DNA of 35,183 nucleotides from positions 1 through 35,183 of IMG/VR virus record IMGVR_UViG_3300042519_000268; one strand, given 5' to 3'. The translations under genes and the position numbers were made by a program. The first letter of the stretch is position 1, and every line of letters begins with the position of its first letter. Origin of the DNA: a virus. The notes beneath the pieces are model-generated. The model worked only from the letters and a program-made list of their open reading frames with translations. It ran no database searches and was not told where the DNA came from. Shown here one piece after another: positions 897-33,814 of this stretch.

Positions 897-2105
897 ATGG
901 GAAAAAAGGGAAACCCTGCTCACAGGGAACAGTTAAAGGGCGCTATCGGTGTTTGGTCTAATTCTTATGACGCACCGACAGGTTATGGGCAGCAAGTAAA
1001 GTATCTGATTGACCGTATGGTTCGTCACGGGTTTGATGTCGCTAACCTTTCTAACTTTGGTCTTGAGGGCAAGATCGACACGATTAAAACACCGTATGGT
1101 GACGTGAAGCATTTTCCTCGTAGTTTTCACGGGTATTCGCAGGACAGTGCCCCGCTTGACTTTATGACGTGGGCCAATTCGGTTGGAAAGAAAGACTTGT
1201 TCTTTACTTTGTATGACGCTTGGGTTCTTGAGTCGCCAATGTACGAGAAGATGCGTCAGATTTGGTCTTGGATTCCACTAGATCACATTACTTTGCAGTC
1301 GCGGGTGAAAGAGTGGGCTCAACGGCCTAACGTGTTGCCGATTACTATGGCACCGCATGGCAAGCGCCAACTTGACCAGGCGGGTATTGAGAATGTTTAT
1401 ATTCCGCACGGTATTGATACAGAAACGTTGAAAGAGAGCTGGACCTTACCGACCGGCCAGGATGTTCGGGACTATTGGAAGACCCGGGATAAGTTTGTTG
1501 TGGGCGTGGTGGCTGCGAATAAAGCTTCTGGCCTTGTTCACCGTAAAGCATTCAGTGAAAACCTAATGGCCTTCAGCATCTTCAGGAAACGCCACGAGGA
1601 TGCTGTGCTTTACTTGCACACCGATTCGACCGGTAGTGGCATTGGCTGGAATCTTGTGGAGTTGTTGAGTTCTTTGAACGTGCCACAAGAGTCGGTACTT
1701 ATTGTGAACCCGTTGGAGTATCGTTACGGTTCTTCACGCGAGACCTTGGCGTCTTATTACACGGGTATGAATGTTTTGTTGGCTCCTAGCCTCGGTGAGG
1801 GCTTCGGTGTGCCGACGATTGAGGCTCAGGCGTGTGGAACGAGGGTAATTGCGTCTAACTGGGCTGCTTCGCAGGATTTGGTTGCCGAGGATGGTTGGCT
1901 TGTTCAGGGCACACCGTTTTGGGATGCCGGTCAGCACGCGTGGTGGCAGACACCTTCCGTTCCTTCGATTGTAGAAGCTTTGGAGGACGCTTACAAGACC
2001 GGTCAAGATAAGTCTGAAATTGCGGTTGCGTTTGCTAAAGACTTTGATGTTGAGACTGTTTGGGCTCGTGACTGGATGCCTTTGCTTAGGAAAGAATTTG
2101 GATGA
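897..2105 (+). CDS. glycosyltransferase, GT-B fold (group 1 / GT4-like)
   Basis: The 402-residue protein carries the C-terminal GT4 signature: a stretch reading PSLGEGFGVPTIEAQACG near residues 298-315, with the Glu residues that bind the nucleotide-sugar donor, followed by a TRVIAS strand. The N-terminal half has the acceptor-side features of GT-B enzymes (residues about 15-40, with a GYGQQ loop). It would transfer a sugar from an activated donor; substrate and acceptor are unknown. It is the first gene of a cassette of five overlapping genes placed between capsid and head-tail connector genes, expressed from its own promoter after the capsid terminator. The next ORF overlaps its stop (ATGA). 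The class assignment is secure; the role in virion, DNA or host-surface decoration is inference. Confidence 0.88.
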   Translation: MGKKGNPAHREQLKGAIGVWSNSYDAPTGYGQQVKYLIDRMVRHGFDVANLSNFGLEGKIDTIKTPYGDVKHFPRSFHGYSQDSAPLDFMTWANSVGKKDLFFTLYDAWVLESPMYEKMRQIWSWIPLDHITLQSRVKEWAQRPNVLPITMAPHGKRQLDQAGIENVYIPHGIDTETLKESWTLPTGQDVRDYWKTRDKFVVGVVAANKASGLVHRKAFSENLMAFSIFRKRHEDAVLYLHTDSTGSGIGWNLVELLSSLNVPQESVLIVNPLEYRYGSSRETLASYYTGMNVLLAPSLGEGFGVPTIEAQACGTRVIASNWAASQDLVAEDGWLVQGTPFWDAGQHAWWQTPSVPSIVEALEDAYKTGQDKSEIAVAFAKDFDVETVWARDWMPLLRKEFG

Positions 2106-2710
2106 GGCTAGCCCACTTTTATCATGTTTATGCTGATGGGGATTGGTTTACGCCAGCTGTTGAGCATTTAGAAGAGCTTGTTATGTCTGGGTTGATTGAC
2201 AACCTTGATGACATGTTTTTGGGCATTGTGGGTTCGCCCGCTAACCGCAAGAAGGTCAAGTTTGAGTTGCCGGGTGTTGTTGTTGCTGAGGCTGATGAGG
2301 GATGGGAGCAAGTCACCTTAGAAGCCGTACATAAATACGTACAAGATAGTGACGACGCAATCTTCTACGCTCACACTAAGGGTGCTTGGTCTAAGAGCCC
2401 GCTGGCTACTAATTGGCGTGTGTCTATGACGAATGACACTGTGACGCGTTGGCAAGAGTGTGTGACGGCTTTGCGCGACCATGATGCCGCTGGGCCTTTT
2501 TGGTTGAAATCGGTTGAGCGGGAACATGCTGAGCATGATTTCTTTTTTGCCGGCAACTTTTGGTGGGCTCGGTCAGACTATTTGCGCACACTGCCACCGT
2601 TGAAGGTTGAGAATCGGTTCCAGGCTGAGGGGTGGATTGGTTTACGTCAGCCCCGGGTGAAGGATATGCGTCCCGGCTTGGCGACTTGGGGGAACTTTTG
2701 GCAACCGTAA
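2102..2710 (+). CDS. putative glycosyltransferase-like protein of the sugar cassette
   Basis: The 202-residue protein starts at an ATG overlapping the upstream stop by 4 bases, implying translational coupling. I do not see a complete standard glycosyltransferase signature. The middle (YAHTKGAWSKSP near residue 92) and the later FFFAGNFWWARSDYL segment (near residue 148) resemble proteins annotated as glycosyltransferase or rhamnan-synthesis-F-like in phage and bacterial surface-polysaccharide loci, where an aromatic-rich 'GNFWWAR' segment follows a 'HTKG' motif. Position between two glycosyltransferase-type genes supports a sugar-transfer role. Function is inferred from resemblance and context only. 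Confidence 0.6.
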   Translation: MRLAHFYHVYADGDWFTPAVEHLEELVMSGLIDNLDDMFLGIVGSPANRKKVKFELPGVVVAEADEGWEQVTLEAVHKYVQDSDDAIFYAHTKGAWSKSPLATNWRVSMTNDTVTRWQECVTALRDHDAAGPFWLKSVEREHAEHDFFFAGNFWWARSDYLRTLPPLKVENRFQAEGWIGLRQPRVKDMRPGLATWGNFWQP

Positions 2711-3357
2711 TCCTTACATCTGTGTACGGCAACTTTGACCCGTTGAGGCCGTTGCCGAAGAACCACGGCTTCGACAGGGCTGTCTGTGTAACCGATAACC
2801 CTGACTTATCGGCTGACGGTTGGGAGATTGTTGTGGTGCCTAGCAATCTGTCGCCACGGTTGGCTGCGAAGCGCGCCAAGATGATGCCATTCGATTTCGT
2901 GAAGGCCGAGTTCGCTGTGTGGATTGATGCAGCGTTTGAGATTGTTGGTGACGGTTTTCGAGAGTTTTGCGAGAAGGCCATAGAGGGCAAGGATATTGTG
3001 GTGTGGGACCACCCCGACAGGCATATGCGACCTGACGCTTTTGCAGAAGCAGCGTACTCGCGCACTATGGCCAAGTATGGGGATCAGGACTTGGAAGGCC
3101 AGGCGGCTCACTATTTGAGTGATGGTTTGCTTGCGGGTTCTGGTTTGTGGGCCTGTGGGACGATTGTGTGGCGTAACCGTGAAAAGGCGCGAGAATTCGG
3201 TCGGCGCTGGTATGACGAGAATGTTAGGTGGACGATTCAGGATCAGATAAGCTTCCCTTATCTTGTGTGGAAGTTGCAACCCAACTTTGGCGTGTTTCCT
3301 GCGCACGAGTATGAGAATCCTTATTTGAGGTGGTGGATGCATGAGCGAAACGTTTGA
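2698..3357 (+). CDS. DUF616-like glycosyltransferase-type protein
   Basis: The protein shows the order typical of DUF616 (TOD1/MUCI70-like) proteins: an N-terminal TSVYGNFDPLRPL segment, CVTDNPDL, GWEIVVVP, then PRLAAKRAKMMPFDF and AVWIDAAFEI, where the acidic pair probably takes the DXD-like role. DUF616 is regarded as glycosyltransferase-like. The frame is open further upstream (GTG at 2632), but that would overlap the previous gene by 79 bases. TTG 2698 has a GGGGG stretch 5 bases upstream and gives a 13-base overlap, so I prefer it; the N-terminus is uncertain. It overlaps the methyltransferase start by 17 bases. Confidence 0.68.
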   Translation: MATVILTSVYGNFDPLRPLPKNHGFDRAVCVTDNPDLSADGWEIVVVPSNLSPRLAAKRAKMMPFDFVKAEFAVWIDAAFEIVGDGFREFCEKAIEGKDIVVWDHPDRHMRPDAFAEAAYSRTMAKYGDQDLEGQAAHYLSDGLLAGSGLWACGTIVWRNREKAREFGRRWYDENVRWTIQDQISFPYLVWKLQPNFGVFPAHEYENPYLRWWMHERNV

Positions 3358-3868
3358 GCGTATAGCGGCCGATCAGGTTGAGGCGCAGGCTGGGCACGTT
3401 TACCGGTACCTGTCGGCGTTGGACTGGATTGAACGCGATCAGAAAGTTATTGACGTGGCCTGCGGTGTCGGTTATGGCGCAAAGATTCTTGCTGAAAAGA
3501 ACGTTGACTATTTTGGTGTTGACAAGATTGAGGCCGACAAACAATACATTCGGTACGGCAACTGGCTGTTTGGTGTGGACTTGAACACTCACCGTTTGAA
3601 CTGGAAGGGCGATGTTGCTATCTGCTTTGAGACTCTTGAGCATTTAGAAAACCCACAACACTTGGCTGACGAGCTTATGGCTGCCGCCCCCGTAATTGTT
3701 GTTTCGGTTCCTACCCGGCCAACGAAACACATAAACGAATATCACTTGCATGACTTCACGGTTGATGACATTCTGGCAATGTTCGACAAGGTAGAACTTG
3801 TTCACCTTGAGGATCAACCAGAAGAACTGTCACACATCTTTGTCTTCAGGAAGCCTGATGCTGCCTAA
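3341..3868 (+). CDS. class I SAM-dependent methyltransferase
   Basis: The 175-residue protein has motif I VIDVACGVGYG (residues about 36-46) for S-adenosylmethionine, an acidic motif II residue in FGVDKIEAD, and the post-motif CFETLEHLENP typical of small Methyltransf_11-like enzymes. This motif set is common in O-methyltransferases acting on sugars, lipids or small metabolites, not in DNA methyltransferases (no PPY motif). Its place inside the sugar cassette suggests it may methylate a sugar made or attached by its neighbours; that is inference. It overlaps both flanking genes. Confidence 0.82.
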   Translation: MSETFERIAADQVEAQAGHVYRYLSALDWIERDQKVIDVACGVGYGAKILAEKNVDYFGVDKIEADKQYIRYGNWLFGVDLNTHRLNWKGDVAICFETLEHLENPQHLADELMAAAPVIVVSVPTRPTKHINEYHLHDFTVDDILAMFDKVELVHLEDQPEELSHIFVFRKPDAA

Positions 3869-4514
3869 CCTGATTGTGCCGGTGTTGAACCGGTACGACT
3901 TGTTGGACAGGATGATTGCGAGTATCGATTACCCGGTACGCGATCTGCTGGTTGTTGATAATGGTGGCGAGCTGACTTCTCTTTTATCAAACGATTTTAT
4001 TCACAATTTGCATGTTTTGAATATGCCGAGCAATCTCGGTGTGGCTGCTTCGTGGAATCTGGGCATAAAGTCGTTTTATGGTGACAGTTTGTGGTTTTTT
4101 GCTTCCAATGACATGTGGTTTAAGCCAGGTGCCCTTGAAACGCTTTCTACGGCCCGTAGAGACGAGATAAGCCTTGCAAGGGACTTTCCCTTTTGGCAAA
4201 CGTTTTCTATCGGTGACGAGGCTCTCGGCAAGCTCGGTTTGTTTGACGAGGGGTTTTTTCCCGCATATTTTGAGGACACGGAATACAAGCGCCGTGCGGA
4301 ACACTTTGGGGTGAATGTTCGGTTGCTTGACGTAGACACCGGACACGATAACTCGTCAACAATAAACAGCAACCCGGTTTATCGTTCGCAAAACGACAGA
4401 ACGTATAGCAACAATCAGGCCTATTTTGATAGGAAGGTTGCTAACAATGATTATGGTCCCGGTGGCTGGCTTTTAGAGCGACGGCGACTCAATGCCTGGG
4501 ACGCTCCGCGATAG
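3858..4514 (+). CDS. glycosyltransferase family 2-like (GT-A) protein
   Basis: The start is ATG 3858, which overlaps the upstream stop by 11 bases. The N-terminus LIVPVLNRYDLLDRMIASI and LLVVDNGG (residues about 4-35) are the typical GT2 nucleotide-binding start. NLGVAASWNLGIKSF (residues about 56-70) is the conserved GT2 segment, and FFASNDMWF supplies the DXD-like acidic position. A LGLFDEGFFPAYFEDTEYKRR segment in the second half matches the GT2 acceptor-side ED motif. At 218 residues it is short but complete in these motifs. It closes the glycosylation cassette; a 20-base gap with a strong Shine-Dalgarno then starts the connector gene. Confidence 0.85.
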   Translation: MLPNLIVPVLNRYDLLDRMIASIDYPVRDLLVVDNGGELTSLLSNDFIHNLHVLNMPSNLGVAASWNLGIKSFYGDSLWFFASNDMWFKPGALETLSTARRDEISLARDFPFWQTFSIGDEALGKLGLFDEGFFPAYFEDTEYKRRAEHFGVNVRLLDVDTGHDNSSTINSNPVYRSQNDRTYSNNQAYFDRKVANNDYGPGGWLLERRRLNAWDAPR

Positions 4515-7083: not shown

Positions 7084-10035
7084 ATGGCTAAAGAACGACC
7101 GTTATCTATAGCCGTTGTCCTGGGTACAAAGGGTAAGGGTTTACAGGAAGCCATCAAGGACACTAAGCGCCTTGCAAGTCAGTTAACTGGGCTCGCGGAT
7201 ACTGCCGCCAAGGCTGCCGTTGGTTTTGCCGCGTTCAAGGGCGGTCAGCTTGTTGCTAACTTTGCGCGTGATTCGATTGAGGCTGGTCGTGATCTTCAGA
7301 CGAACTTGAATGGTTTGCAGTCTGTGTTTGGTTCTCTTACACCTCAGATGGTGGAGTTTACTAAGACGACTAATGGTATTGGTTTGTCGATGGCTGAGGC
7401 GGCCAAGGCTTCTACGTTTATTGGTTCGGTGCTAAAGCAGTCCGGTTTTGCTATGGACGAGGTTGCCGAGCAGACTCAACGTTTGACCCGTTTGGCTGCT
7501 GACCTTTCGCTGACGTTCGGTTACGATGTGCAAGAGTCGTTGCTTGCAATGACCGCGTTGTTCCGTGGTGAGTATGACCCGATTGAAAAGTTCGGTGTCG
7601 CCATGAAGCAGTCCGAAATTGATTCGGAAAAAGCTGCTAGGGGTCTTGATGGTTTGAAGGGTGCCGGTGAGCGTCTTGTTGACCAGCAGATTCGGTTGGA
7701 GTTGCTGTATCAGCGTGCTGGCGACTCTATGGGCGCTTATGAGCGTCAGGCGGGTAATCTTCGGGTAACGCAGGATACGTTGCGCGCTTCGTTTGCGACC
7801 ATGCAGCAGATTCTTGGTGCGGCAATGTTGCCGGCGGTTGCGGACCTTACCGCCTCTTTGATTCCGCTTATTGAGACTATTGGCCCGATCCTTGGTGCGG
7901 CTATGCAACAGATTGTGCCTTTGCTTGTGGCATTTTCTCAAAACACTGAGGGCATTAGCCGTACACTTGTAGATTTTATTAAGTCCGTTGCGGTTCTTAC
8001 AGTATTTATGGCGAACCTTGCCAAGGTAATCGTTGACAACATTGATTTCATCCGAGGTCTTGCTGTTGTTCTTGGTGTTTTGGCTACCGGTTTGTATGCT
8101 TTGCGTATTGGTGTTGCCGTGTTTGGCGCTTTGCAGGCGGCCGCATTGGCGTTTGGTATTACTGTCAACGGTGCGACTTGGGCCATTAGAGGTTTAAAAG
8201 TTGCTATTTTTGCCATACCTGTTGTCGGTTGGGCTTTAGGTCTGGCGAGCGTTGGTGTTGAGCTTTTCAACATCACTAAGAAGGCCGAAGACGTTGGCGA
8301 TAGCGTCAACGACATGCTTGACGTTGACTCGCTCATGGCAAGTATTGATGCTTCTAAAGCGCTTAACGAGGGTCTTGCTGGCACGGCTGATGCGTTTGAT
8401 GAGGTGGCGGCGGCGGGTGGCGGCGCTACCGATGCGGTAGTCGAGTTCTATAGCAACCTGTCTAAAGAGATTGCCAAACAGCAGGCTAAGCTTCGTCTTC
8501 AACAAATGGGCGCTTCTGAAGGCTTAATTTCCGCAATTCTTGGATCGGGCGCTGACTGGCAACGCGTATTCAATGATGTGGTATCGCGCGGTGTCGCCGG
8601 TGTTGCTGATGTTCAACGCATGTTCCGCGGCACTGCTGCCGGCTTCGATGAGGCTATGGCTCAGTGGGAAAAAGAGTATGGCGAGCCTTTCCGCAAGTTT
8701 AAAGAAGATGCTCTTGCTGCCCGTGATGCCCTGGTTGAGTTTACTAAAGGGATTCAGATTCTGCCTTCGGTTGCCGAAACTCTTGGCGAGTTCGAACGTA
8801 ATGCGGTTGACAGCCTTGCTTCTATTGAGGAAAAGCTTGAGGATGCTTTTGATAACGAATACTTGTTCCGTGATTCTTACGAAAATCTTCTTCAGTATGC
8901 ACGCAATGAGTTTAATGTTTTACGTCAGATTGAGCGTCAACGTGATGAGATTATTTCGCGTCGCAATGCCGCCGAGGCGCTTATCAATTCGGTTCAAAGT
9001 TCTATTAGGGGCAGCGGTCGCCTTGTAAGCCTGTTTGGTGAGGTTGAAAAGCAGGTGGCTGGCGTTGATGTTGTGGCTTTTGCCACACGCACCGTGTCGG
9101 CCAGCAGGCAGCTCAAAGAGTTCCGCACCGCCCTGATCACCAACTTTGTTGAGCCGATTGAGAAGGCCGCTTCTAAGGCTGACAAACTTGTTTCTAGTTA
9201 CCGTGCCGTTGTGGAGCGTACACGCGAGTTTGTTGAAAACCTCAAGACTTTGCGGTCGCTTGGACTTGACCCCATGCTGTTCAATCAGCTTGTTGAGGCT
9301 GGTGTTGAGGCTGGTGGCGCTACCGCACAGGCTTTGGTTGAGGGTGGCTCCGAGACTATTAACGAGCTGAATGGTTTGTTTAAGGAGCTTGATACTCTTG
9401 GTGCTGAGCTTGGCGAGAACACTGCGCAGGTTATGTTCGGTCAGGGCCAGAACTTTGTCAATGGCATTGTTGAGGGTCTTGAGGATCAGGCTGGCGAGCT
9501 TGAGCTTTCCGCCAAGTCGATTGCTGAGGCGTTTACTAAAACCTTTGAGCAAGTTCTCGTTGATGGTATCAACGCTGCTATTGATGCGGCTGAGGCCGCA
9601 ATTATGGCTCGGATGCCCCGCCTTGAAGACTTTATGCGCAACATGAACTTCGGTGGCCGTGGTGGTGGCGGTGGAGGCGGCGGCGATGTTACCGGCGCAA
9701 CTGGTGGCGCTTCTGTCAGGCCACCGCTATCCAATACTTTGCTAAATGCTGGGCTTAGCGCAGCAAGCACAACTTTTGGGGCTACTGGTTTTTCTGGTTT
9801 ATCGGCTCTTCAAAATGCCACGCCAAATCGCATTTCAACGCCATATAGCCCGTTGACTCCTGGGCCGAGTGGGCTTCTTGGGCCCGGTCGTGGCGCGGTT
9901 TACCAAACTAATTACAACATCACAACTTCCGCACTTACGCCACGTACATTGCAAAACGGCTTGACGGCGACGGCGAACCGTTCTGGTGTTGTTAGCACCA
10001 GTCGTCCGGGTGCGCTAGACAGGCGTGTCGGCTAA
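7084..10035 (+). CDS. tape measure protein
   Basis: At 983 residues this is by far the longest gene and follows the tail chaperone region, as in all siphoviruses. The N-terminal 250 residues are helical and start with a typical TMP segment (KDTKRLASQLTGLADTAAKA). Residues about 290-400 contain hydrophobic, membrane-like segments (LAVVLGVLATGLYALRIGVA and others). The second half is a long helical/coiled-coil region, and near residue 860 there is a Gly-rich linker encoded by repeated GGN codons. As a ruler at about 0.15 nm per residue it would imply a tail near 150 nm. It overlaps the next start by one base (TAATG). Confidence 0.93.
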   Translation: MAKERPLSIAVVLGTKGKGLQEAIKDTKRLASQLTGLADTAAKAAVGFAAFKGGQLVANFARDSIEAGRDLQTNLNGLQSVFGSLTPQMVEFTKTTNGIGLSMAEAAKASTFIGSVLKQSGFAMDEVAEQTQRLTRLAADLSLTFGYDVQESLLAMTALFRGEYDPIEKFGVAMKQSEIDSEKAARGLDGLKGAGERLVDQQIRLELLYQRAGDSMGAYERQAGNLRVTQDTLRASFATMQQILGAAMLPAVADLTASLIPLIETIGPILGAAMQQIVPLLVAFSQNTEGISRTLVDFIKSVAVLTVFMANLAKVIVDNIDFIRGLAVVLGVLATGLYALRIGVAVFGALQAAALAFGITVNGATWAIRGLKVAIFAIPVVGWALGLASVGVELFNITKKAEDVGDSVNDMLDVDSLMASIDASKALNEGLAGTADAFDEVAAAGGGATDAVVEFYSNLSKEIAKQQAKLRLQQMGASEGLISAILGSGADWQRVFNDVVSRGVAGVADVQRMFRGTAAGFDEAMAQWEKEYGEPFRKFKEDALAARDALVEFTKGIQILPSVAETLGEFERNAVDSLASIEEKLEDAFDNEYLFRDSYENLLQYARNEFNVLRQIERQRDEIISRRNAAEALINSVQSSIRGSGRLVSLFGEVEKQVAGVDVVAFATRTVSASRQLKEFRTALITNFVEPIEKAASKADKLVSSYRAVVERTREFVENLKTLRSLGLDPMLFNQLVEAGVEAGGATAQALVEGGSETINELNGLFKELDTLGAELGENTAQVMFGQGQNFVNGIVEGLEDQAGELELSAKSIAEAFTKTFEQVLVDGINAAIDAAEAAIMARMPRLEDFMRNMNFGGRGGGGGGGGDVTGATGGASVRPPLSNTLLNAGLSAASTTFGATGFSGLSALQNATPNRISTPYSPLTPGPSGLLGPGRGAVYQTNYNITTSALTPRTLQNGLTATANRSGVVSTSRPGALDRRVG

Positions 10036-22194: not shown

Positions 22195-22416
22195 ATGCTT
22201 GAAGATTTGACACCACCGGTCAAGGTTTTTCCTTGCAAGGTGCGAGAAGTTACTCAAACGTTAGAAGAATCTGACGGTGCGATCTTTATGAAAGCAATCA
22301 GCGATGTTGCTGCTTGGTCGAACAATGGTCTTGCTTCTGAGCTAAACAAGCGCGGTGTTTACATTAGTGAGAAGTCGATTAGGAAGCACCGCAGGAAAGA
22401 GTGTTCTTGTGCTTGA
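22195..22416 (+). CDS. hypothetical protein, HTH-like
   Basis: The 73-residue protein starts at ATG 22195 after GGAAAGGGAAACAA. The second half (VAAWSNNGLASELNKRGVYI, then SEKSIRKHRRKECSC) looks like a helix-turn-helix recognition pair, as in small actinophage DNA-binding proteins that precede a phosphoesterase gene. It overlaps the next gene's GTG start by 8 bases, which suggests the two are made together. Confidence 0.6.
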   Translation: MLEDLTPPVKVFPCKVREVTQTLEESDGAIFMKAISDVAAWSNNGLASELNKRGVYISEKSIRKHRRKECSCA

Positions 22417-23563
22417 TGACTTGCAACCAGCAAGAAAGGTAGAAGCGCCTTCTGGGTTCCGTCCAGCTATCGAATTTGACGGCAACGAGGGTCTTGCTAC
22501 TACGGAGGGTCTATCCGATCTTCCAAACTTTAGTGACTTTCTTGCGGACAGGGGTTACTCTCCTGACGAGTATGAGATCGTAGGGTCGCCTCGTACTTCG
22601 CAGTGGCAACGGTGGGACGGGGAGTGGTTAACCTCGTATCGTTTTCACTTCCGCAAGAAGGTCACTGATGTTGACTTGCCCACGTTGTATGCGGAGGCCA
22701 AGAAGTTCAAGAAGGGTAAACCGCCTGTCAAGAAGAAGGCGACAAAGACTTACGTTATCTGCCCGGCTGATTTCCAGATTGGTAAGGGCGGGTCTCGCGG
22801 CGGACACTTGGAGTCTATTCAGCGCATCCATGAAGCTTATGCGCGCGTGGAAGAGAAGCTGAAGGTCGGCAACTACGATCACATTGTGATCTTGGACATG
22901 GGCGACATTGTGGAAGGTGTGAACAACAAGGCCGACATGGATCAGCTCATCACCAATACTCTTAGCCCGATGCAGCAAACAGATGTTGCGGCTGCGTTGA
23001 TTTGGGATTTGTTGAAGATGGCGTCAAAGTACGCCCCCCTGACTTACGGTTCGGTTGCTTCGAACCATTGCCAGTTCCGTGTGAACAAGGCGGCGGTTGG
23101 TAGGCCGGGCACGGACGACTGGGGCATTGTTATTCTTCAGCAGTTGCGTCGCCTCGCCACAGAGGTTGGCTTGCCTGTAGAGCGTTGGCTTGTTCCACAC
23201 GCCCACGATGAAGGGTTCGCCTTTGACGTGTTCGATGACGGGTCACACATTATCGGAGCCATTCACGGGCACCAGGTTGCCAGACCAGACTCTTTTCAAA
23301 GCTTCTGGACCAAAGCAGTGTTTAACAACACCTACTTGGCAGCAGCAAACCTTATGGTCTCAGGTCACTTCCACCACCACAGGGTCGAACAGTTCTCCGG
23401 CAGCGAGGGTAGGGAACGCTGGTGGGTTCAAGCGTCCACAATGGACAACGGTTCCGACTGGTTCACCCGCATGAACGGGGGAGGCGGGGACTCAACCCCA
23501 GCAATCACATGCTTCGAACTAGAAAAAGGTGTGCCTTTCCGCGGGAAGGTTGATCTGCTGTAA
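22409..23563 (+). CDS. calcineurin-like metallophosphoesterase
   Basis: From GTG 22409 (GGAAAGAG upstream) the product has 384 residues. Metal-binding motifs appear in the right order: D-x-Q in CPADFQIGKGG, GD in DMGDIVEG, N-H in VASNHCQ, an isolated H in IGAIHGHQ, and GHFHHH near the C-terminus. This is the metallophosphoesterase core. The first 110 residues hold no known domain. Such enzymes are frequent in actinophage replication regions and may remove 3' phosphates or act as nucleases; the substrate is unknown. The ORF is open upstream to 22355, but this would overlap the previous gene by 62 bases without a Shine-Dalgarno. Confidence 0.85.
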   Translation: MLDDLQPARKVEAPSGFRPAIEFDGNEGLATTEGLSDLPNFSDFLADRGYSPDEYEIVGSPRTSQWQRWDGEWLTSYRFHFRKKVTDVDLPTLYAEAKKFKKGKPPVKKKATKTYVICPADFQIGKGGSRGGHLESIQRIHEAYARVEEKLKVGNYDHIVILDMGDIVEGVNNKADMDQLITNTLSPMQQTDVAAALIWDLLKMASKYAPLTYGSVASNHCQFRVNKAAVGRPGTDDWGIVILQQLRRLATEVGLPVERWLVPHAHDEGFAFDVFDDGSHIIGAIHGHQVARPDSFQSFWTKAVFNNTYLAAANLMVSGHFHHHRVEQFSGSEGRERWWVQASTMDNGSDWFTRMNGGGGDSTPAITCFELEKGVPFRGKVDLL

Positions 23564-23580: not shown

Positions 23581-23609
23581 TTGATTTTAGATAGCAAACG
23601 GTGTTTACT
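23581..23609 (+). promoter_or_regulatory. promoter TTGATT-17-TTTACT
   Basis: TTGATT (23581-23586) and TTTACT (23604-23609) are 17 bp apart. Transcription would start near 23616, giving a leader of about 30 bases with a GGAGGGG Shine-Dalgarno (23637-23643) for ATG 23646. Confidence 0.5.
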
Positions 23610-23645
23610 ATGACTAACACGTCACAAGGTTTATTTGGAGGGGAA

Positions 23646-23828
23646 ATGACCAGAGAACAAGAACTGTTGCAAGTAGCGAGTAACTATTCGCAGAAGCTTG
23701 GCAGCATAAAGACTAACCCGCCCGTTGAGAAGCGTTACAGTAACGACTCTAGGGATCGCATTGCAACTTCGATGCGCAGTTACTACAGGCAGGTTTCGGC
23801 ATTGTTGGTGTCGGAAGGTAAAAACTGA
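23646..23828 (+). CDS. small hypothetical basic protein
   Basis: I choose ATG 23646, which has GGAGGGG ideally placed, over the upstream starts of the same frame (ATG 23610, GTG 23601). The 60-residue product reads MTREQELLQVASNYSQKL and then KRYSNDSRDRIATSMRSYYR. It is basic and helical, has its own promoter, and is followed by a strong terminator, so it is a monocistronic unit. No family recognised. Confidence 0.6.
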   Translation: MTREQELLQVASNYSQKLGSIKTNPPVEKRYSNDSRDRIATSMRSYYRQVSALLVSEGKN

Positions 23829-23881: not shown

Positions 23882-23925
23882 AAAAAAAAGGGGGGGGTCT
23901 CGCCCATGCGAGGCTCCTCTTTTTT
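23882..23925 (+). terminator. strong rho-independent terminator
   Basis: A long hairpin has core CTCGC (23899-23903) pairing with GCGAG (23908-23912) around CCAT. It is extended by G-C and G-U pairs between the 8-G run (23890-23897) and 23913-23921, and by A-T pairs between the 8-A run and the T tract 23920-23925. The A and T flanks make it potentially bidirectional. Confidence 0.85.
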
Positions 23926-23933
23926 GTGTCTTG

Positions 23934-24012
23934 GGGCGCGTTCTGGGTTCGACTGTTTGTAAAGCCCTTCACGGGAGCAGGCAAGAGCAGAGTTCGATTC
24001 TCTGCGCGTCCA
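23934..24012 (+). ncRNA. tmRNA-like mini-RNA: tRNA-like domain without the mRNA-like part
   Basis: A 7-bp acceptor stem (23934-23940 with 24005-24011) contains a G3-U70 wobble, the alanine identity element. It is followed by A73, with no encoded CCA. A perfect 5-bp T-arm (23988-23992 with 24000-24004) encloses TTCGATT. The 5' part reads TTCTGGGTTCGAC, the D-loop-like start of tmRNA, and GCAGGCAAGAG (23977-23987) resembles the segment before the tag-reading region in actinobacterial tmRNA as I remember it. No D-arm or anticodon arm fits. A whole tmRNA has about 350 nt; here the tag-coding region and pseudoknots are absent. It could be a functional mini-RNA, a decoy, or a relic of an ssrA attachment site. 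No clear promoter lies between the terminator and the element. Confidence 0.6.
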
Positions 24013-24104: not shown

Positions 24105-24425
24105 ATGAGTAACTTTCGGCAGCCGTGCCTGGATTGCGGTGTTGTGACCCGTAACGGTTCTCGCTGCCCGGAACATCAGCAGTCCCGTGACCGTTATGTG
24201 GATATGGCTAAGGCGGCCCGCAAGCGCGCGACTGGGCAATACTCTGGGGATTACCGCAAGCGCGCTAAAGCTGTGCGGGACTCAGCGAACATTTGTTGGT
24301 TGTGTGGTGGTGGTGCGCGCCCTAATGATCCTTGGCAGGCCGACCACGTTATTCCTGGTGATGCTGACTCTCCGTTGGCTCCGGCTCACCGCTCTTGTAA
24401 TGCGGCTCGGGGCAACAAAGTTTAG
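24105..24425 (+). CDS. HNH endonuclease
   Basis: The 106-residue protein has an N-terminal zinc-binding part (CLDCGVVTRNGSRCPEH) and a full C-terminal HNH motif: CWLCGG (residues about 65-70), WQADHVIPG with the catalytic His, and AHRSCNAARGNK with the N and the final metal residues. HNH proteins of this compact form are usually encoded near the terminase genes and act with them in packaging cleavage; here it lies about 4 kb upstream of terS, separated by the accessory block, which therefore looks inserted. It is probably transcribed leaderless from TAAACT. Confidence 0.87.
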   Translation: MSNFRQPCLDCGVVTRNGSRCPEHQQSRDRYVDMAKAARKRATGQYSGDYRKRAKAVRDSANICWLCGGGARPNDPWQADHVIPGDADSPLAPAHRSCNAARGNKV

Positions 24426-28469: not shown

Positions 28470-28907
28470 ATGCCTAATCCAGCGAAACCGCTTGAGATGA
28501 AACGTTTGACTGGCAATCCGGGTAAGCGTTCGTTGCCATCTTTGAATGACACTTTTGAGCTTGAGGGCGGTTATGTGCCCCCACATCGGGATTTAGGTGA
28601 CGCCGGCCTGGCTTTGTGGGATCGGGTGTTTTCGCAGGGTAAGACTTGGGTTAGCAGGCAGTCGGATACTGAGGCGTTGATGATTGTGTGTAAGCAGCTT
28701 GACCGGCAGGTGATGTTGGAGCGTCAGGTTGATGCGGCTCCTGATGACTTTCATTTGTTGCGTCAGTTGCTTGAACTTGAGAAGGCGATTATGTCTGGCC
28801 TTGGTCAGCTTGGGTTTACGGTTGAGGCTAGGTCGCGTTTGGGTCTTGCGGAGATTAAGGCGAAGTCGGCGTTTGAGACTTTGATGGCTGAGAGGGCGCG
28901 TGACTGA
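28470..28907 (+). CDS. terminase small subunit (P27 family)
   Basis: The 145-residue protein begins with MPNPAKPLEMKRLTGNPGKR, the diagnostic N-terminus of P27-type small terminases (K-x-L-x-G-N-P-G-K-R). An alpha-helical body follows (LALWDRVFSQGKTWVSRQSD, then DFHLLRQLLELEKAIMSG) and a final GLAEIKAKSAFETLMAER helix. It recognises the packaging site and hands DNA to the large subunit, whose GTG start overlaps its end by 8 bases. Probably transcribed leaderless from TAGGGT. Confidence 0.9.
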   Translation: MPNPAKPLEMKRLTGNPGKRSLPSLNDTFELEGGYVPPHRDLGDAGLALWDRVFSQGKTWVSRQSDTEALMIVCKQLDRQVMLERQVDAAPDDFHLLRQLLELEKAIMSGLGQLGFTVEARSRLGLAEIKAKSAFETLMAERARD

Positions 28908-30414
28908 GCCACGCTGGTTGACGCCTGTTCCGCCTGAATCTGTAGAACGCGGTGACGGTGATTTCATTGTGCGGTTTGCTGACGCGTTCGCCACGATCAC
29001 TAAAGACTCTGTTGCCGGGCGTGCCGGTAGCAAGATGGTGTTGCGTGATTGGCAGAAGCGTTTGCTCGGCGACTTGTTTGCACGCGATGAGGACGGTCTG
29101 CTCAGGCATCGCGTTTCTCTGGTCGGAGTTCCGAGAAAGAACGGTAAGTCGAGCATTGGTTCACTGATTGCTGCTTTCGCCTTGGTGGACTTTAAGACGC
29201 AGGGTGCGGAAATCTATTCGGTTGCCGCTGACCGCAACCAGGCGAAGATTGTGTTTGAGGATACGAAGAAACTGATTCGCAACTCGGAGCTTATAGAGCA
29301 TGTAAAGATTTTCCGAGATCACTTGTATGTTCCGGCAACGGGCAACGTGTATCGGGTGTTGTCGGCCGACGCCCCCAGGCACGAAGGCTTGTCGCCCACG
29401 CTCGTTCTGTTCGATGAGCTTCACGCCCAACCCAATCGAAAGCTCTTCGATGTTATGTCTTTGGCTCAGGGTGCGCGTGGTAAGCAGGCCACGATGATTG
29501 CGATTACAACCGCTGGCGTCAAAACAGAGTCGCAGACTGGACGCGACACTATAGCTTATACGCTATATCAGTACGGCAAGAAAATCATCTCGGGCGAGGA
29601 AGAAGACCCGACTTTCTACATGTGCTGGTATGAAGCGGATATGGAGTCGGATCATAAGGCAGAGCAGACGTGGCGTGACGCTAATCCTGGCTTTGATGAC
29701 ATTGTGGCGAAGTCTGACTTCGAATCAGCGGTGAAACGTACACCTGAAGCCGAGTTTCGTACAAAGCGATGCAATCAGTGGGTTTCGGCGCAGCAAGCAT
29801 GGCTTCCAACGGGTGCTTGGACAAAGCTGGCGGGTGATGTGGAGATTGGGCCGGATGAGGACTACGTTTTGGGCTTTGATGGTTCGTATGCGAACGACTC
29901 AACCGCCATTTGTGCCGTAACAGTGCCAAAGGGCGATGAACTACCCAAAGTGAAGCTTGTGAAGGTGTGGGAGAAGGACTTTGAGCGTGATGACGACACT
30001 TGGCGTGTTCCAATCGAAGAAGTCAAGCAAACAATCATCGAATACGTCCAAAACAACCCTCAGTGCCGTGAGATAGCGTGTGACCCGTACCGTTGGGCTC
30101 AAATGATGCAGGACTTGGACGAATTGGACTATCCAATCGTCGAATACAAGACCAATCTGCTCAATTTGATGATTCCGGCTACTCAGAAAGTGTTTGAAGC
30201 GGTCACGGAAGAGCGTTTATTGCACGATGGCAACCCTGTGTTATCTCGGCATATCGACAACTGTGTCATTAAGATTGACCACCGTGGGCAACGTGTCACT
30301 AAAGAGTCGGCAACGTCTCGAAAGAAGATTGACGCCGCGATTGCGTTCATTATCGCCTATGACAGAGCGACAGCAAGTAGAATAGAAGAGGGAGTGCCGG
30401 AGTTTTTCTTCTAA
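28900..30414 (+). CDS. terminase large subunit
   Basis: The 504-residue protein has the Walker A GVPRKNGKSS (K83), Walker B LVLFDE (168-173) followed by LHAQ, and the ATPase coupling segment AITTAGVK (201-208). The C-terminal nuclease domain starts with DYVLGFDGSYANDSTA (D327) and closes with KKIDAAIAFIIAYDRAT with a conserved acidic residue. This is the Terminase_1/HK97-like large subunit, which drives DNA into the prohead and cuts it. GTG 28900 overlaps terS by 8 bases. Confidence 0.96.
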   Translation: MTEPRWLTPVPPESVERGDGDFIVRFADAFATITKDSVAGRAGSKMVLRDWQKRLLGDLFARDEDGLLRHRVSLVGVPRKNGKSSIGSLIAAFALVDFKTQGAEIYSVAADRNQAKIVFEDTKKLIRNSELIEHVKIFRDHLYVPATGNVYRVLSADAPRHEGLSPTLVLFDELHAQPNRKLFDVMSLAQGARGKQATMIAITTAGVKTESQTGRDTIAYTLYQYGKKIISGEEEDPTFYMCWYEADMESDHKAEQTWRDANPGFDDIVAKSDFESAVKRTPEAEFRTKRCNQWVSAQQAWLPTGAWTKLAGDVEIGPDEDYVLGFDGSYANDSTAICAVTVPKGDELPKVKLVKVWEKDFERDDDTWRVPIEEVKQTIIEYVQNNPQCREIACDPYRWAQMMQDLDELDYPIVEYKTNLLNLMIPATQKVFEAVTEERLLHDGNPVLSRHIDNCVIKIDHRGQRVTKESATSRKKIDAAIAFIIAYDRATASRIEEGVPEFFF

Positions 30415-30421
30415 GGACATT

Positions 30422-30556
30422 ATGTTGGTAAATATCTTGCAAATAGGGGGCGCTGTCGCAATTAGCGTTGGCGCAGCCCTGATCTACCCACCATTGGGGT
30501 TGATTATTCTTGGCGCTTTTGCGATTGTGTTCGGTTTGAGTCTGGAGCGTAAGTAA
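30422..30556 (+). CDS. 44-residue membrane protein between terminase and portal
   Basis: ATG 30422 follows AAGGA, 7 bases after the terminase stop. The product is two hydrophobic segments (ILQIGGAVAISVGAALIY, then GLIILGAFAIVFGLSL) and a short ERK end. Its TAA overlaps the portal start by one base (TAATG), so it is coupled on both sides. Small two-helix proteins occur here in several actinophages. Function unknown. Confidence 0.7.
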   Translation: MLVNILQIGGAVAISVGAALIYPPLGLIILGAFAIVFGLSLERK

Positions 30557-31920
30557 TGCTGAATAATCTTTTTTACGATGGCGAGGAGCGTGCCATCTCG
30601 TTTCAAACGGTTTGGGGTTCAGGTGACTTCCTGGAACTTGAAAGCCAGTCCGCCACTGTCGTCAACCAAGAAACCGTCTTCACGGTAAACGCAATCTTCT
30701 CCGCTGTCAGTCTTATCAGCGACACTATTTCAACACTGCCCGTAGATTCTTATATTCGCCTTGATGGCTTGCGCCGCCCTTTCCGTCCTCGCCCCGCTTG
30801 GGTTACGAAACCGGACGTTGACACGACCAAGGAAGCCTTCTATGGCGCTGTTATCGTTTCCATGCTTCTTGACGGTAACGCTTTCATTCGCGTCTACTCA
30901 AACAGGCGTGGCGAAATCAATAACCTTGTCGTTCTGAACCCTATTGATGTGGAGATTCGCCGTAACGGCGTTGGACGCGTCATGTACGAAGTCAAGGGTG
31001 AGAGCCGGATGCTTTCATCCGAGAACGTCATCCACGTTCCCGATGTCGTTCGTCCGGGAGCAATCCGTGGCGTATCACGCGTCGAAGCACTTAAGGAAGA
31101 CTTTGGCCTTGCCATTGCGCTTCGCTCCTACGCGGCGCGTTTCTTCGGCTCTGGTGCAACCACTCAGGGCATTATCGAATACCCGAACAAGCTCACTGGC
31201 GAACAAGCCAAGATGTTGCAGGAGAACTTTGATTCTCGCCACAAGGGTTGGAAGCGTTCGCACCGCACCGGCATTCTGTCTGGTGGGGCAACGTACAAGA
31301 CCACGAGCGTAACTAACGATCAGGCACAGTTCATTGATTCCCGCCGTATGGCTGTTGAGGATGTGGCTCGCGCGTTCAACGTTCCACCTCACCTTCTTGG
31401 CCTTCCTGGCACTAACTCTTATGCTTCGGTTGAACAAAACAACCTGGCGTGGGTTATCCACTGCCTGCGTCCTATCGTACAAAAGCTTGAGTCGGCGTTC
31501 TCGCCTCTCATGTCGCGCTACCCCGGCGGCGAGACAGCGTTTATCAAGTTCAATCTTGACGGTTTGCTTCGCGCCGACATTAACTCGCGTATGAGCGCTT
31601 ACAGCACTGGTTTGCTTTCCGGTTTCCTGACTATCAACGATGTTCGCCGTCTTGAGGACTTGCAGGACATTGATGACCCGTCAGCGAACACTGTTCGGGT
31701 GCCTTTGGCTAACGTGAACGTTGCTGCGGCTAACTTGAAGGAAGAAACCGAGAAGGTTGACATGGCTCAGCGTCTTATCCAGGTTGGTTTTGATCCTGCC
31801 GGCACTTTGGCTGCTTTGGGTCTGCCTGCGATTGAACACACCGGTTTGCCTTCGGTTCAGTTGCAACCGACCTCGCAGATTGATCCGACTGATCCTAACT
31901 CGGAGTATGTGGTCGAATAA
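30556..31920 (+). CDS. portal protein (HK97 family)
   Basis: The 454-residue protein contains the family's features in order: FTVNAIFSAVSLISDTISTL near residue 36, the AFIRVYSNRRGEI and VLNPIDVEIRR strands, VIHVPDVVRPG, then RRMAVEDVARAFNVPPHLLG (near residues 257-276), the diagnostic helix-turn of HK97 portals. The C-terminal third is helical, then acidic and disordered-looking. It forms the dodecameric DNA gate. Start shares a base with the preceding stop; the next gene starts on its stop (TAATG). Confidence 0.95.
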   Translation: MLNNLFYDGEERAISFQTVWGSGDFLELESQSATVVNQETVFTVNAIFSAVSLISDTISTLPVDSYIRLDGLRRPFRPRPAWVTKPDVDTTKEAFYGAVIVSMLLDGNAFIRVYSNRRGEINNLVVLNPIDVEIRRNGVGRVMYEVKGESRMLSSENVIHVPDVVRPGAIRGVSRVEALKEDFGLAIALRSYAARFFGSGATTQGIIEYPNKLTGEQAKMLQENFDSRHKGWKRSHRTGILSGGATYKTTSVTNDQAQFIDSRRMAVEDVARAFNVPPHLLGLPGTNSYASVEQNNLAWVIHCLRPIVQKLESAFSPLMSRYPGGETAFIKFNLDGLLRADINSRMSAYSTGLLSGFLTINDVRRLEDLQDIDDPSANTVRVPLANVNVAAANLKEETEKVDMAQRLIQVGFDPAGTLAALGLPAIEHTGLPSVQLQPTSQIDPTDPNSEYVVE

Positions 31921-32192
31921 TGCCTTTGTATAGCAATTTGGTTACGTTGGGGACAGCGGCAACCCTGGTTGTTCCACCGAGGACGATGGGCCAGGAAGTG
32001 CATTTGCACAATGCCACTAAAAGCTCAAACCACTATATTCACCTCGGTGGGCCAGGCATTACAGTAAACAACAGTATCCATATCGATCCGGGCGAGAGCA
32101 TCACTATTACTCTTGGCCCCGGCGATGATCTCTATGCTCTTTCAGACCCTTCGGGGTTGAAGTTGGGGGTTTTGGCGGTGACGCAGGACTAA
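31920..32192 (+). CDS. small beta-rich putative virion protein
   Basis: The 90-residue protein shares a base with both flanking genes (TAATG at each junction). It is a beta protein (LVTLGTAATLVVPPRTMGQE, VHLHNATKSSNHYIHLGG, GESITITLGPGDDLYAL), the pattern of small head-decoration or fibre-attachment proteins. Position between portal and protease supports a virion role, but none has been shown here. Confidence 0.55.
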   Translation: MPLYSNLVTLGTAATLVVPPRTMGQEVHLHNATKSSNHYIHLGGPGITVNNSIHIDPGESITITLGPGDDLYALSDPSGLKLGVLAVTQD

Positions 32193-33814
32193 TGCCTTAC
32201 TACATTTCTGATTCTGCTGAGGGTTGCTCTGGTTGGGCAACGATTAAGGAGGATGGCGAGGTTATGGGTTGTCACGCCACAAAACAAGACGCAATCGATC
32301 AGGCGCTTGCTATTGCGCAGGCTGAGGACTCAACGTTTGAGGGTGAACGTGCCATGCCTGGCACTTTGAAGCCCGGTAACTTTGTTTCTTGGAAAGACCA
32401 CGGCGAAACTTATCAGGGCCGCATCCGCGAAGTTGTGACCTCGGGCACTATTGACATTCCCGGTTCGGGTGTGCAAATTGCTGGCACGTTTTTTGACCCC
32501 GCCGCTTTGGTGCAAATGTATGAGCAGGTTGATGGCGAATGGGTTGAGGCTTCAACGTTCTTGGGCCTTTTGTTTTCACAGCTCAGTGGTATTAGCGCTT
32601 TGGTTGACGATGAGATGGCCGAGTTTGATTATGAAGAAGATTTACTGGATGATTCACCAGATGATGAAGATGACAGTGACGACGAGGATGATTTGGTTGG
32701 AGAAAACCGACAAGTCAACCTGGAGGCTCCTGCTTACATGCGGGCTGCCGCGCGTCAGGGTTTGAAGTATTACGAAGAGGGTTTGGCTGGCGACGGTCTT
32801 GTTGAGCGCACAGTTCGTGAAGCTAGGGCAATGGCCGAGGGCAATGTGACCGCCGACAAGTGGGTTCGCATAGCAGCGTGGATTGCTAGGCACCTGGTTG
32901 ATCTTGATGCTCCAGCGGCTAACCCTAACAGCGAAGATTACCCTTCTGCCGGTGTTGTTGCGCACCTGCTGTGGGGTTCGGGGCCATCTAAGCGTGCCGC
33001 CCGCAGGGCGTTAGAGTACGCCGAAGGTGTTGTAGGTAGACTAGAAGAAGAAAATCGTCAACGCGTGAGCGTGGAGGCTAAAGAGATGGCAAAGATAGAA
33101 ACCAGAACTAACAGCGCCCGTTTTGAGGTGCGAGAACTCGATGGTGGCGGGATGACCTTCACTGGTTATGCTGCAGTATTCAACGCGCCAAGCGAACCCC
33201 TGCCCTTCATTGAGCGTATTGCCCCCGGGGCTTTCAAGCGCTCTTTGGATTCCCGTAATGACATCAAGTTGCTGTGGAACCACGATACTGGTGTGGTTCT
33301 CGGTTCTCGCCGTGCGGGAACTTTGCGTCTTGAGGAAGACAACTATGGTTTGCGCGTTAGTGCCGATCTGCCCGACACTCAGGCCGGCCGTGACGCCGCC
33401 TACCTCATTAAGCGTGGCGATGTTGACGCAATGAGCTTCGGTTTCTCCGTGCCCAAGGGCGGCGACGAGTGGGTCTCCGACAACGAGCGTGTTTTGCGTT
33501 CGGTCAGGCTTATCGAAACATCGGTTGTGCCATTTCCTGCGTATTCGCAAACCTCTGGTTCGACTTCTGTGCGAGGACTTGACAAGGTTGCTCGCCGCGC
33601 TTCGGTTAACGCTGACGCGCTTGCAGACGCGATTGTTGCTATCGAATCCGACAGCGACTTGACTGAAGAGCAAACCGAGCTTTTGGCCAAGGTTATTAGT
33701 GAACTTGGTCCCAAGTCTGAGGAACCTGCTGAGACTGTTGAAAGCGAAGAGCTTGATGCGGACATGTTGGAGCTGAAGAAAAAGAAGCTTGAGCAACTAC
33801 TGAAAAGGATTTAA
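32192..33814 (+). CDS. HK97-type prohead protease fused to N-terminal accessory domains
   Basis: At 540 residues this is much longer than a normal prohead protease (about 200). Residues about 1-45 (ISDSAEGCSGWATIKEDGEV) and 52-115 (a hypervirulence/SH3-like GNFVSWKDHGETYQGRI fold) precede an acidic linker (about 150-170). Residues about 178-290 hold a helical domain (YMRAAARQGLKYYEEGLAGD, then VAHLLWGSGPSKRAARRALE) known from other phage protease fusions. The U35/S78 protease begins near residue 299 with H364 (LLWNHD) and S415 (AMSFGF) as catalytic residues. An internal GGAGG plus ATG at 33086 could make the protease alone. The protease matures the capsid. Confidence 0.88.
   Translation: MPYYISDSAEGCSGWATIKEDGEVMGCHATKQDAIDQALAIAQAEDSTFEGERAMPGTLKPGNFVSWKDHGETYQGRIREVVTSGTIDIPGSGVQIAGTFFDPAALVQMYEQVDGEWVEASTFLGLLFSQLSGISALVDDEMAEFDYEEDLLDDSPDDEDDSDDEDDLVGENRQVNLEAPAYMRAAARQGLKYYEEGLAGDGLVERTVREARAMAEGNVTADKWVRIAAWIARHLVDLDAPAANPNSEDYPSAGVVAHLLWGSGPSKRAARRALEYAEGVVGRLEEENRQRVSVEAKEMAKIETRTNSARFEVRELDGGGMTFTGYAAVFNAPSEPLPFIERIAPGAFKRSLDSRNDIKLLWNHDTGVVLGSRRAGTLRLEEDNYGLRVSADLPDTQAGRDAAYLIKRGDVDAMSFGFSVPKGGDEWVSDNERVLRSVRLIETSVVPFPAYSQTSGSTSVRGLDKVARRASVNADALADAIVAIESDSDLTEEQTELLAKVISELGPKSEEPAETVESEELDADMLELKKKKLEQLLKRI

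Follow-up and report, generated by a model that had tools for sequence, protein, structure and literature searches.

The tmRNA of mycobacteriophage DS6A (tmID 11587) has been classed as "TLD only," that is, as a tmRNA tRNA-like domain (Hudson, Lau and Williams 2014, PMC4131195). The same paper cites Mao et al. 2009 for strong inhibition of tmRNA by a molecule of this sort, chargeable or not, which it attributes tentatively to titration of SmpB, and a 2025 tmRNA database paper repeats the statement on DS6A and inhibition (PMC11915505). The RNA partner of SmpB in co-crystals was an artificial TLD in which the 5' 25 nt and the 3' 34 nt were joined by a UUCG loop (reviewed in PMC3929946). According to the summary in PMC2481249, Shimizu and Ueda 2006 showed that a TLD-only tmRNA together with SmpB is enough for binding to the ribosome and for peptidyl transfer; in a reconstituted system, TLD plus SmpB is described as yielding polyalanine in the absence of mRNA (PMC2481249; PMC3929946).

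Here we describe a class of phage RNAs, the mini-tmRNAs, that resemble the DS6A molecule in being phage-encoded, in having little beyond the TLD and no tag frame, and in being proposed inhibitors of host tmRNA. DS6A, compared here by its published description, is the one case found in the literature, whereas we collected at least 130 sequences from many phage types. The plastid tmRNA genes of Mallomonadaceae (PMC11915505) also lack a coding part, but they are plastid-encoded, ~65 bp long, and a matter of organellar reduction. Full-length phage tmRNAs (mycobacteriophages Bxz1 and Cali; permuted forms in Melnitz and cyanophage) likewise supply a phage-borne TLD but, unlike mini-tmRNAs, have a tag message and pseudoknots. 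The artificial Thermus TLD (T. thermophilus, PDB 2CZJ) shares the architecture of a TLD with a capped P2, but it is a man-made construct, whereas mini-tmRNAs are natural and most have a conserved internal loop and apical hairpin. The mascRNA/menRNA family (RF01684) also consists of small tRNA-like RNAs with no anticodon arm, although these are eukaryotic and lack the tmRNA D-loop and the alanine/SmpB signature. The kind of molecule is therefore known from DS6A; new here are how widespread TLD-only tmRNA is, its phage specificity, and its strict alanine identity.

A complete tmRNA tRNA-like domain without a message

The window analyzed here is the whole 35,183-nt stretch of IMG/VR virus record IMGVR_UViG_3300042519_000268. 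Positions 23934..24012 on its plus strand are a complete, message-less TLD, a mini-tmRNA (TLD-only tmRNA) whose mature form runs to A73, CCA not being encoded (ACAA). The 5' strand of the acceptor stem, GGGCGCG (23934..23940), forms seven of seven pairs with 24005-24011; the 3' strand, CGCGTCC, is followed by the discriminator A73 at 24012 (24005..24012 together), and the third pair, G23936-U24009, is G3-U70. The tmRNA-type D segment TTCTGGGTTCGAC (23941..23953) comes next; the tmRNA D-loop TGGNTTCGAC is present, and, as in other tmRNA TLDs, the D segment GGNUUCGAC has no D stem. The P2 stem pairs TGTTTGT (23954..23960) with GCAGGCA (23977..23983) and is capped by an apical 3-bp hairpin, CCC-TTCAC-GGG (23965..23975), atop an A-rich internal loop. 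A linker, AGAG (23984..23987), which is GGAG in the nearest relatives and GGAN in 119 of 131 members, leads into the T-arm, CAGAG TTCGATT CTCTG (23988..24004), with five of five base pairs. As in a tmRNA TLD, the T-arm has 5 bp and a TTCRANT loop, and a P2 stem separates the D segment from the GGAN-type linker. A phage-encoded TLD with nothing else, the arrangement described for DS6A, is what the window holds.

The 7-bp acceptor stem, G3-U70, A73, and 5-bp T-arm with TTCGATT on which the original prediction rested were all read in the window sequence. Its view that the T-arm follows the 5' part directly needs correction: 34 nt separate the D segment from the T-arm, and all of them are stem, loop, or linker (P2, the 3-bp hairpin, and the 4-nt linker). 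Similarly, GCAGGCAAGAG, earlier taken for the segment that precedes the tag region, consists of the linker and, before it, the 3' strand of P2, and co-varies with the 5' strand in relatives. These 34 nt contain no tag reading frame with a stop, and the window element has no room for PK1-PK4, the pseudoknots of a full tmRNA. A protein-coding reading of the element was considered and rejected. An ordinary or suppressor tRNA-Ala was also rejected, there being no D stem, no anticodon arm with a 7-nt loop, and no ARAGORN call.

The apical part of the P2 hairpin differs from member to member. An A-rich asymmetric loop with a CCGCACGCGG-like hairpin, as at 23961-23976 in the window, is common to most, and alternative apices are a plain hairpin in loci L333 and L345 and a AACATTAATTTA-type apex in L277 and L326.

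Detection by covariance models

The covariance search with the Rfam tmRNA model that had been proposed as a check does match the window element. RF00023 (tmRNA) was the sole significant Rfam match, at 15.7 bits (E 1.6e-4) in local mode, accompanied by a weak match to mascRNA (RF01684). Scored end to end, RF00023 gave 41.7 bits over model positions 1-374 (E 4e-17), but short tRNA-sized matches in one bacterial genome also reach 15-33 bits in this mode, and because such matches extend to 33 bits we do not rely on this score. By itself the single-sequence score is suggestive; the decisive evidence is comparative.

Rfam at its gathering thresholds missed the window copy, as did ARAGORN, which reported no tRNA in the window. 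Several other members, 77-88 nt long, score 52-71 bits against Rfam's 47-bit cut-off, which suggests that some may already be listed as plain tmRNA by automatic annotation. Neither BLASTN with the 250-nt region nor megablast with 15 kb gave a useful match among named phages. Members score 48-90 bits with model R1, except that a divergent second copy in L295 scores 42; matches of tRNA size in the inspected loci, which were tRNA-array loci, reach at most 27 bits. In the R1 training alignment, A4, row L247 was entered minus one D-spacer base, which leaves the 131-member counts given below unaffected.

Conservation at the same genomic place

The search for the same element in related phages, also proposed at the outset, found it at the same place: loci L002-L009 and L015 hold it in the same interval as the window, with compensatory changes. 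Acceptor pair C4-G is replaced by G-C and C6-G by U-A, the fourth T-stem pair changes from A-U to G-C, and P2 is altered on both strands (e.g., GTCTG..CAGAT in L015). Constant across these same-place relatives are G3-U70, A73, TTCGAC, and TTCGATT. L008 has a single A-C mismatch, at acceptor pair 4, and CCA is encoded in L008 and L009. The element is patchy, most relatives that have the HNH gene lacking a match at the RF00023 level. At L008:4381-4910 ARAGORN calls a 530-nt tmRNA with a tag peptide, the 3' end of which is that of the mini-tmRNA; this call is probably an artifact, and one that annotators could repeat.

Distribution of mini-tmRNAs

A first pattern, consisting of the D segment and the T-loop with a short gap, matched 28 stretches in IMG/VR, and in the majority the match was an element with this form, on unrelated contigs; an over-strict earlier pattern had zero matches in IMG/VR, and a loosened version gave matches. 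A second pattern, in which the acceptor stem, P2, and position 70 were all unconstrained, matched at least 120 IMG/VR stretches, and all loci new to it except L304 and L371 showed proper acceptor and T-arm pairing. Altogether, 131 distinct mini-tmRNA sequences of common anatomy were collected. Applied to 257 Gb of bacterial and archaeal genomes, the second pattern matched 36 stretches. Proper folding was seen in nine of them, at least six of which (L393, L395, L400, L409, L410, and L416) adjoin terminase, portal, head protease, or head morphogenesis genes. On this evidence the class is essentially phage-borne. A further copy lies on a 27-kb Pseudonocardia plasmid that also carries an integrase and a phage gene of the HK97 gp10 type. 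Model R1 found no member in 200 Microbacteriaceae genomes, which is weak evidence of absence, the positive control having used laxer scoring.

Named carriers are Pontimonas phage phiPsal1 and the Streptomyces phages Shaeky, pSt2308, BRock, Alone3, LuckySocke, and GiJojo, in none of which is the element annotated as a mini-tmRNA. Matches in cyanophages were rejected as mini-tmRNAs, being parts of a permuted full tmRNA. Synechococcus phages S-CAM1 (L268, ~980-1100) and S-SSM7 (L271, ~1000-1060) have an apparent two-piece tmRNA of this sort, with the 3' half directly followed by the 5' half and not annotated as tmRNA in the records.

Two loci deserve separate mention. On the phage contig of L295, two different mini-tmRNAs (5-84 and 1317-1395) lie 1.3 kb apart, and the first, with altered D and T loops, may be decaying or diverging. 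L249 carries a Pistol ribozyme (706-767; 51 bits, above the Rfam cut-off) about 200 nt upstream of its mini-tmRNA (971-1050).

Covariation across 131 sequences

Members were admitted with at least 11 of 12 acceptor and T-arm pairs, and because this pairing served as the filter, independent evidence comes from P2 and from which bases form pair 3. The outer six pairs of P2, which were never filtered, are paired in 82-98% of the 131 members, and among 92 representatives (<85% identity) P2 pairing is 80-98%, compared with 41-53% after shuffling. All eight modeled pairs of the P2 helix show two-sided changes. In alignment A5 (95 sequences), which was fitted to model R1 and so leans to the R1 structure in a way that the position-based P2 count does not, 96.6% of structure cells are paired versus 63.0% when shuffled, and the covariation score is 0.809, compared with 0.162 shuffled and 0.08-0.11 with partners slid. 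MAFFT misaligned the acceptor stem (D spacers differ and flanks are unequal), so stems were aligned by position or by R1.

G3-U70 and A73 are present in 131 of 131 distinct members, U70 being fixed by its distance from the T-loop, so that the small bonus for G3/U70 in choosing the acceptor start cannot move it. Acceptor pairs 4-6, in contrast, each occur as four to six pair types. This invariance amid variable neighbors points to a putative AlaRS identity element. The 131-member comparison and the RF00023 match bear out the earlier proposal of a tmRNA-derived, alanine-type TLD with no reading frame.

Genomic context and transcription

The window, an IMG/VR virus record, has the gene set of a tailed phage, circularly permuted. 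Both terminase subunits, small and large, lie within 28470-30414, the portal gene at 30556-31920, and the head protease/major head protein at 32192-33814, with further major head sequence at 29-826; the tape measure gene lies at 7084-10035. Upstream of the mini-tmRNA on the same strand is a phage exonuclease gene of PHROG 284 (22355..23563), and downstream, also on the plus strand, is an HNH endonuclease gene (24105..24425); a small open reading frame (23601-23828) lies between the two. The closest named relative of the exonuclease is that of Pontimonas phage phiPsal1 (43% identity), and on that ground the probable host is an aquatic member of the actinobacterial family Microbacteriaceae. Glycosyltransferase genes (897-4514) separate the major head protein gene from the head-tail adaptor genes, an arrangement also found in phiPsal1. 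The phiPsal1 copy of the mini-tmRNA is flanked by a small gene on one side and the major capsid gene on the other.

A tRNA gene lies within 300 nt in 20 of the 92 representatives, and in Shaeky, BRock, pSt2308, Alone3, LuckySocke, and GiJojo the element is inside a tRNA cluster, either unannotated or, in GiJojo, under a CDS call. This proximity to tRNA genes makes transcription and tRNA-type processing plausible. The GiJojo call, gene 44 (L432:399-641), is a hypothetical protein gene annotated over the mini-tmRNA and is probably not a real gene. Relative to controls placed at random within the same loci and not matched for intergenic sequence, a -10-like TANNNT at -18..-9 is found in 26% of members versus 8%, and a strong hairpin ending close upstream in 24% versus 4%. 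Clear TATACT or TATAAT boxes precede the copies in L172, L190, L200, L218, L290, and L301. The window copy is of the hairpin kind: a terminator-like hairpin with an A-tract and a T-tract (23886..23925, plus strand; -26.5 kcal/mol, z -5.75), kept in relatives, ends 8 nt before the mini-tmRNA. Strong terminator-like hairpins just before the element were also seen in L357, L379, L282, L302, L318, L340, and L410.

Proposed function

Starting from the observed sequence, structure, conservation, and phage specificity of the element, we consider it fairly probable that the mini-tmRNA is a functional phage RNA gene whose product is charged by AlaRS, bound by SmpB, and enters stalled ribosomes in competition with host tmRNA. 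From its structure and by analogy with published TLD biochemistry, the transcript would be trimmed like a tRNA, by RNase P at the 5' end and with CCA added to the 3' end; host AlaRS would charge it with alanine through G3-U70 and A73; host SmpB would bind it through the tmRNA D-loop and linker; and entry into the A site of ribosomes that have stalled with no mRNA would then take place with EF-Tu, in competition with host tmRNA. With no tag message, the nascent chain would receive alanine and no degradation tag, and trans-translation would be blocked or diverted. Less certainly, the benefit to the phage would be inhibition of host tagging. As the original prediction had also suggested, a decoy or modulator of ribosome rescue is the most likely role, with DS6A as the precedent. 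Standing against this reading in the window copy are the terminator-like hairpin 8 nt upstream and the failure to find a sigma-70-type promoter there. The patchy occurrence of the element among relatives also counts against it. A farther-reaching account, which we put forward tentatively, is that of a phage-specific class of alanine-accepting, message-less tmRNAs in phages of several bacterial phyla, in which entry with SmpB and EF-Tu would lead to untagged or alanine-tailed release in place of tag-and-destroy.

Non-templated alanine tailing, in which alanyl-mini-tmRNA and SmpB would pass the nascent chain along successive mini-tmRNAs and so add an alanine tail at stalled ribosomes, as a phage-made alternative rescue system, seems unlikely. 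It would accord with the alanine identity pair conserved in 131 of 131 members and with the mRNA-independent polyalanine synthesis described for TLD and SmpB (PMC2481249, PMC3929946), but that reaction was shown solely in vitro with artificial TLDs, and no route for chain release is apparent.

Improbable, in our judgment, is a sponge that merely titrates SmpB, with charging irrelevant. The reported inhibition of tmRNA by a TLD-like molecule, chargeable or not and perhaps through SmpB titration (Hudson et al. 2014, PMC4131195), would fit it, but G3-U70 and A73 are invariant in the 131 members while other acceptor pairs vary freely, and a pure sponge should need neither. Because the published inhibition is reported to be independent of charging, a decoy effect alone does not explain the invariant G3-U70; the invariance suggests instead selection for charging, and hence for ribosome entry over mere titration. 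The strict alanine identity thus favors an alanylated competitor that would enter ribosomes over a plain SmpB sponge.

It is very improbable that the element is chiefly punctuation, a tRNA-like structure cut by RNase P to leave a hairpin-protected mRNA 3' end. mascRNA is a tRNA-like RNase P cut signal of this type on MALAT1, and both the weak mascRNA match and the excess of hairpins just upstream, the window included, agree with the idea. RNase P, however, does not require the conserved G3-U70, the tmRNA D-loop, or the GGA linker, and among other members some are preceded by a -10-like box of their own and some sit inside tRNA arrays. Punctuation is possible as a side role, which would leave the tmRNA-specific positions unexplained.

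A relic of attP, or of host ssrA captured by an ssrA-integrating ancestor, is scarcely credible even though both halves are tmRNA-derived and ssrA is a common integration target, because the element keeps its place in relatives and covaries in all stems across the 131 sequences, which contradicts the relic alternative offered originally; nor does it share more than 11 nt exactly with tmRNA loci of the presumed (inferred) host family or have an integrase among the window proteins scanned, and the earlier judgment that attP is a poor explanation stands. An attP site as such would call for a longer identical stretch in common with ssrA of the host, and for an integrase close by, and was rejected on these two counts.

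Conclusions

Mini-tmRNAs are probably a viral tool that interferes with, or rewires, the host's rescue of stuck ribosomes. Phage interference with trans-translation by an RNA mimic had previously been suggested from one mycobacteriophage; here it would be the work of a class that is widespread, under strong selection, and for the most part absent from current annotation: tRNA finders are silent, some copies, that of the window among them, fall below the Rfam cut-off, and one is annotated as a protein gene. Cultivable systems are available in the Streptomyces phages LuckySocke and Alone3 on S. lividans and in phiPsal1 on Pontimonas salivibrio. If the proposal is true, mini-tmRNAs would be a viral counterpart of decoy tRNAs, directed against the rescue machinery, and compact tmRNA inhibitors could be obtained from nature.
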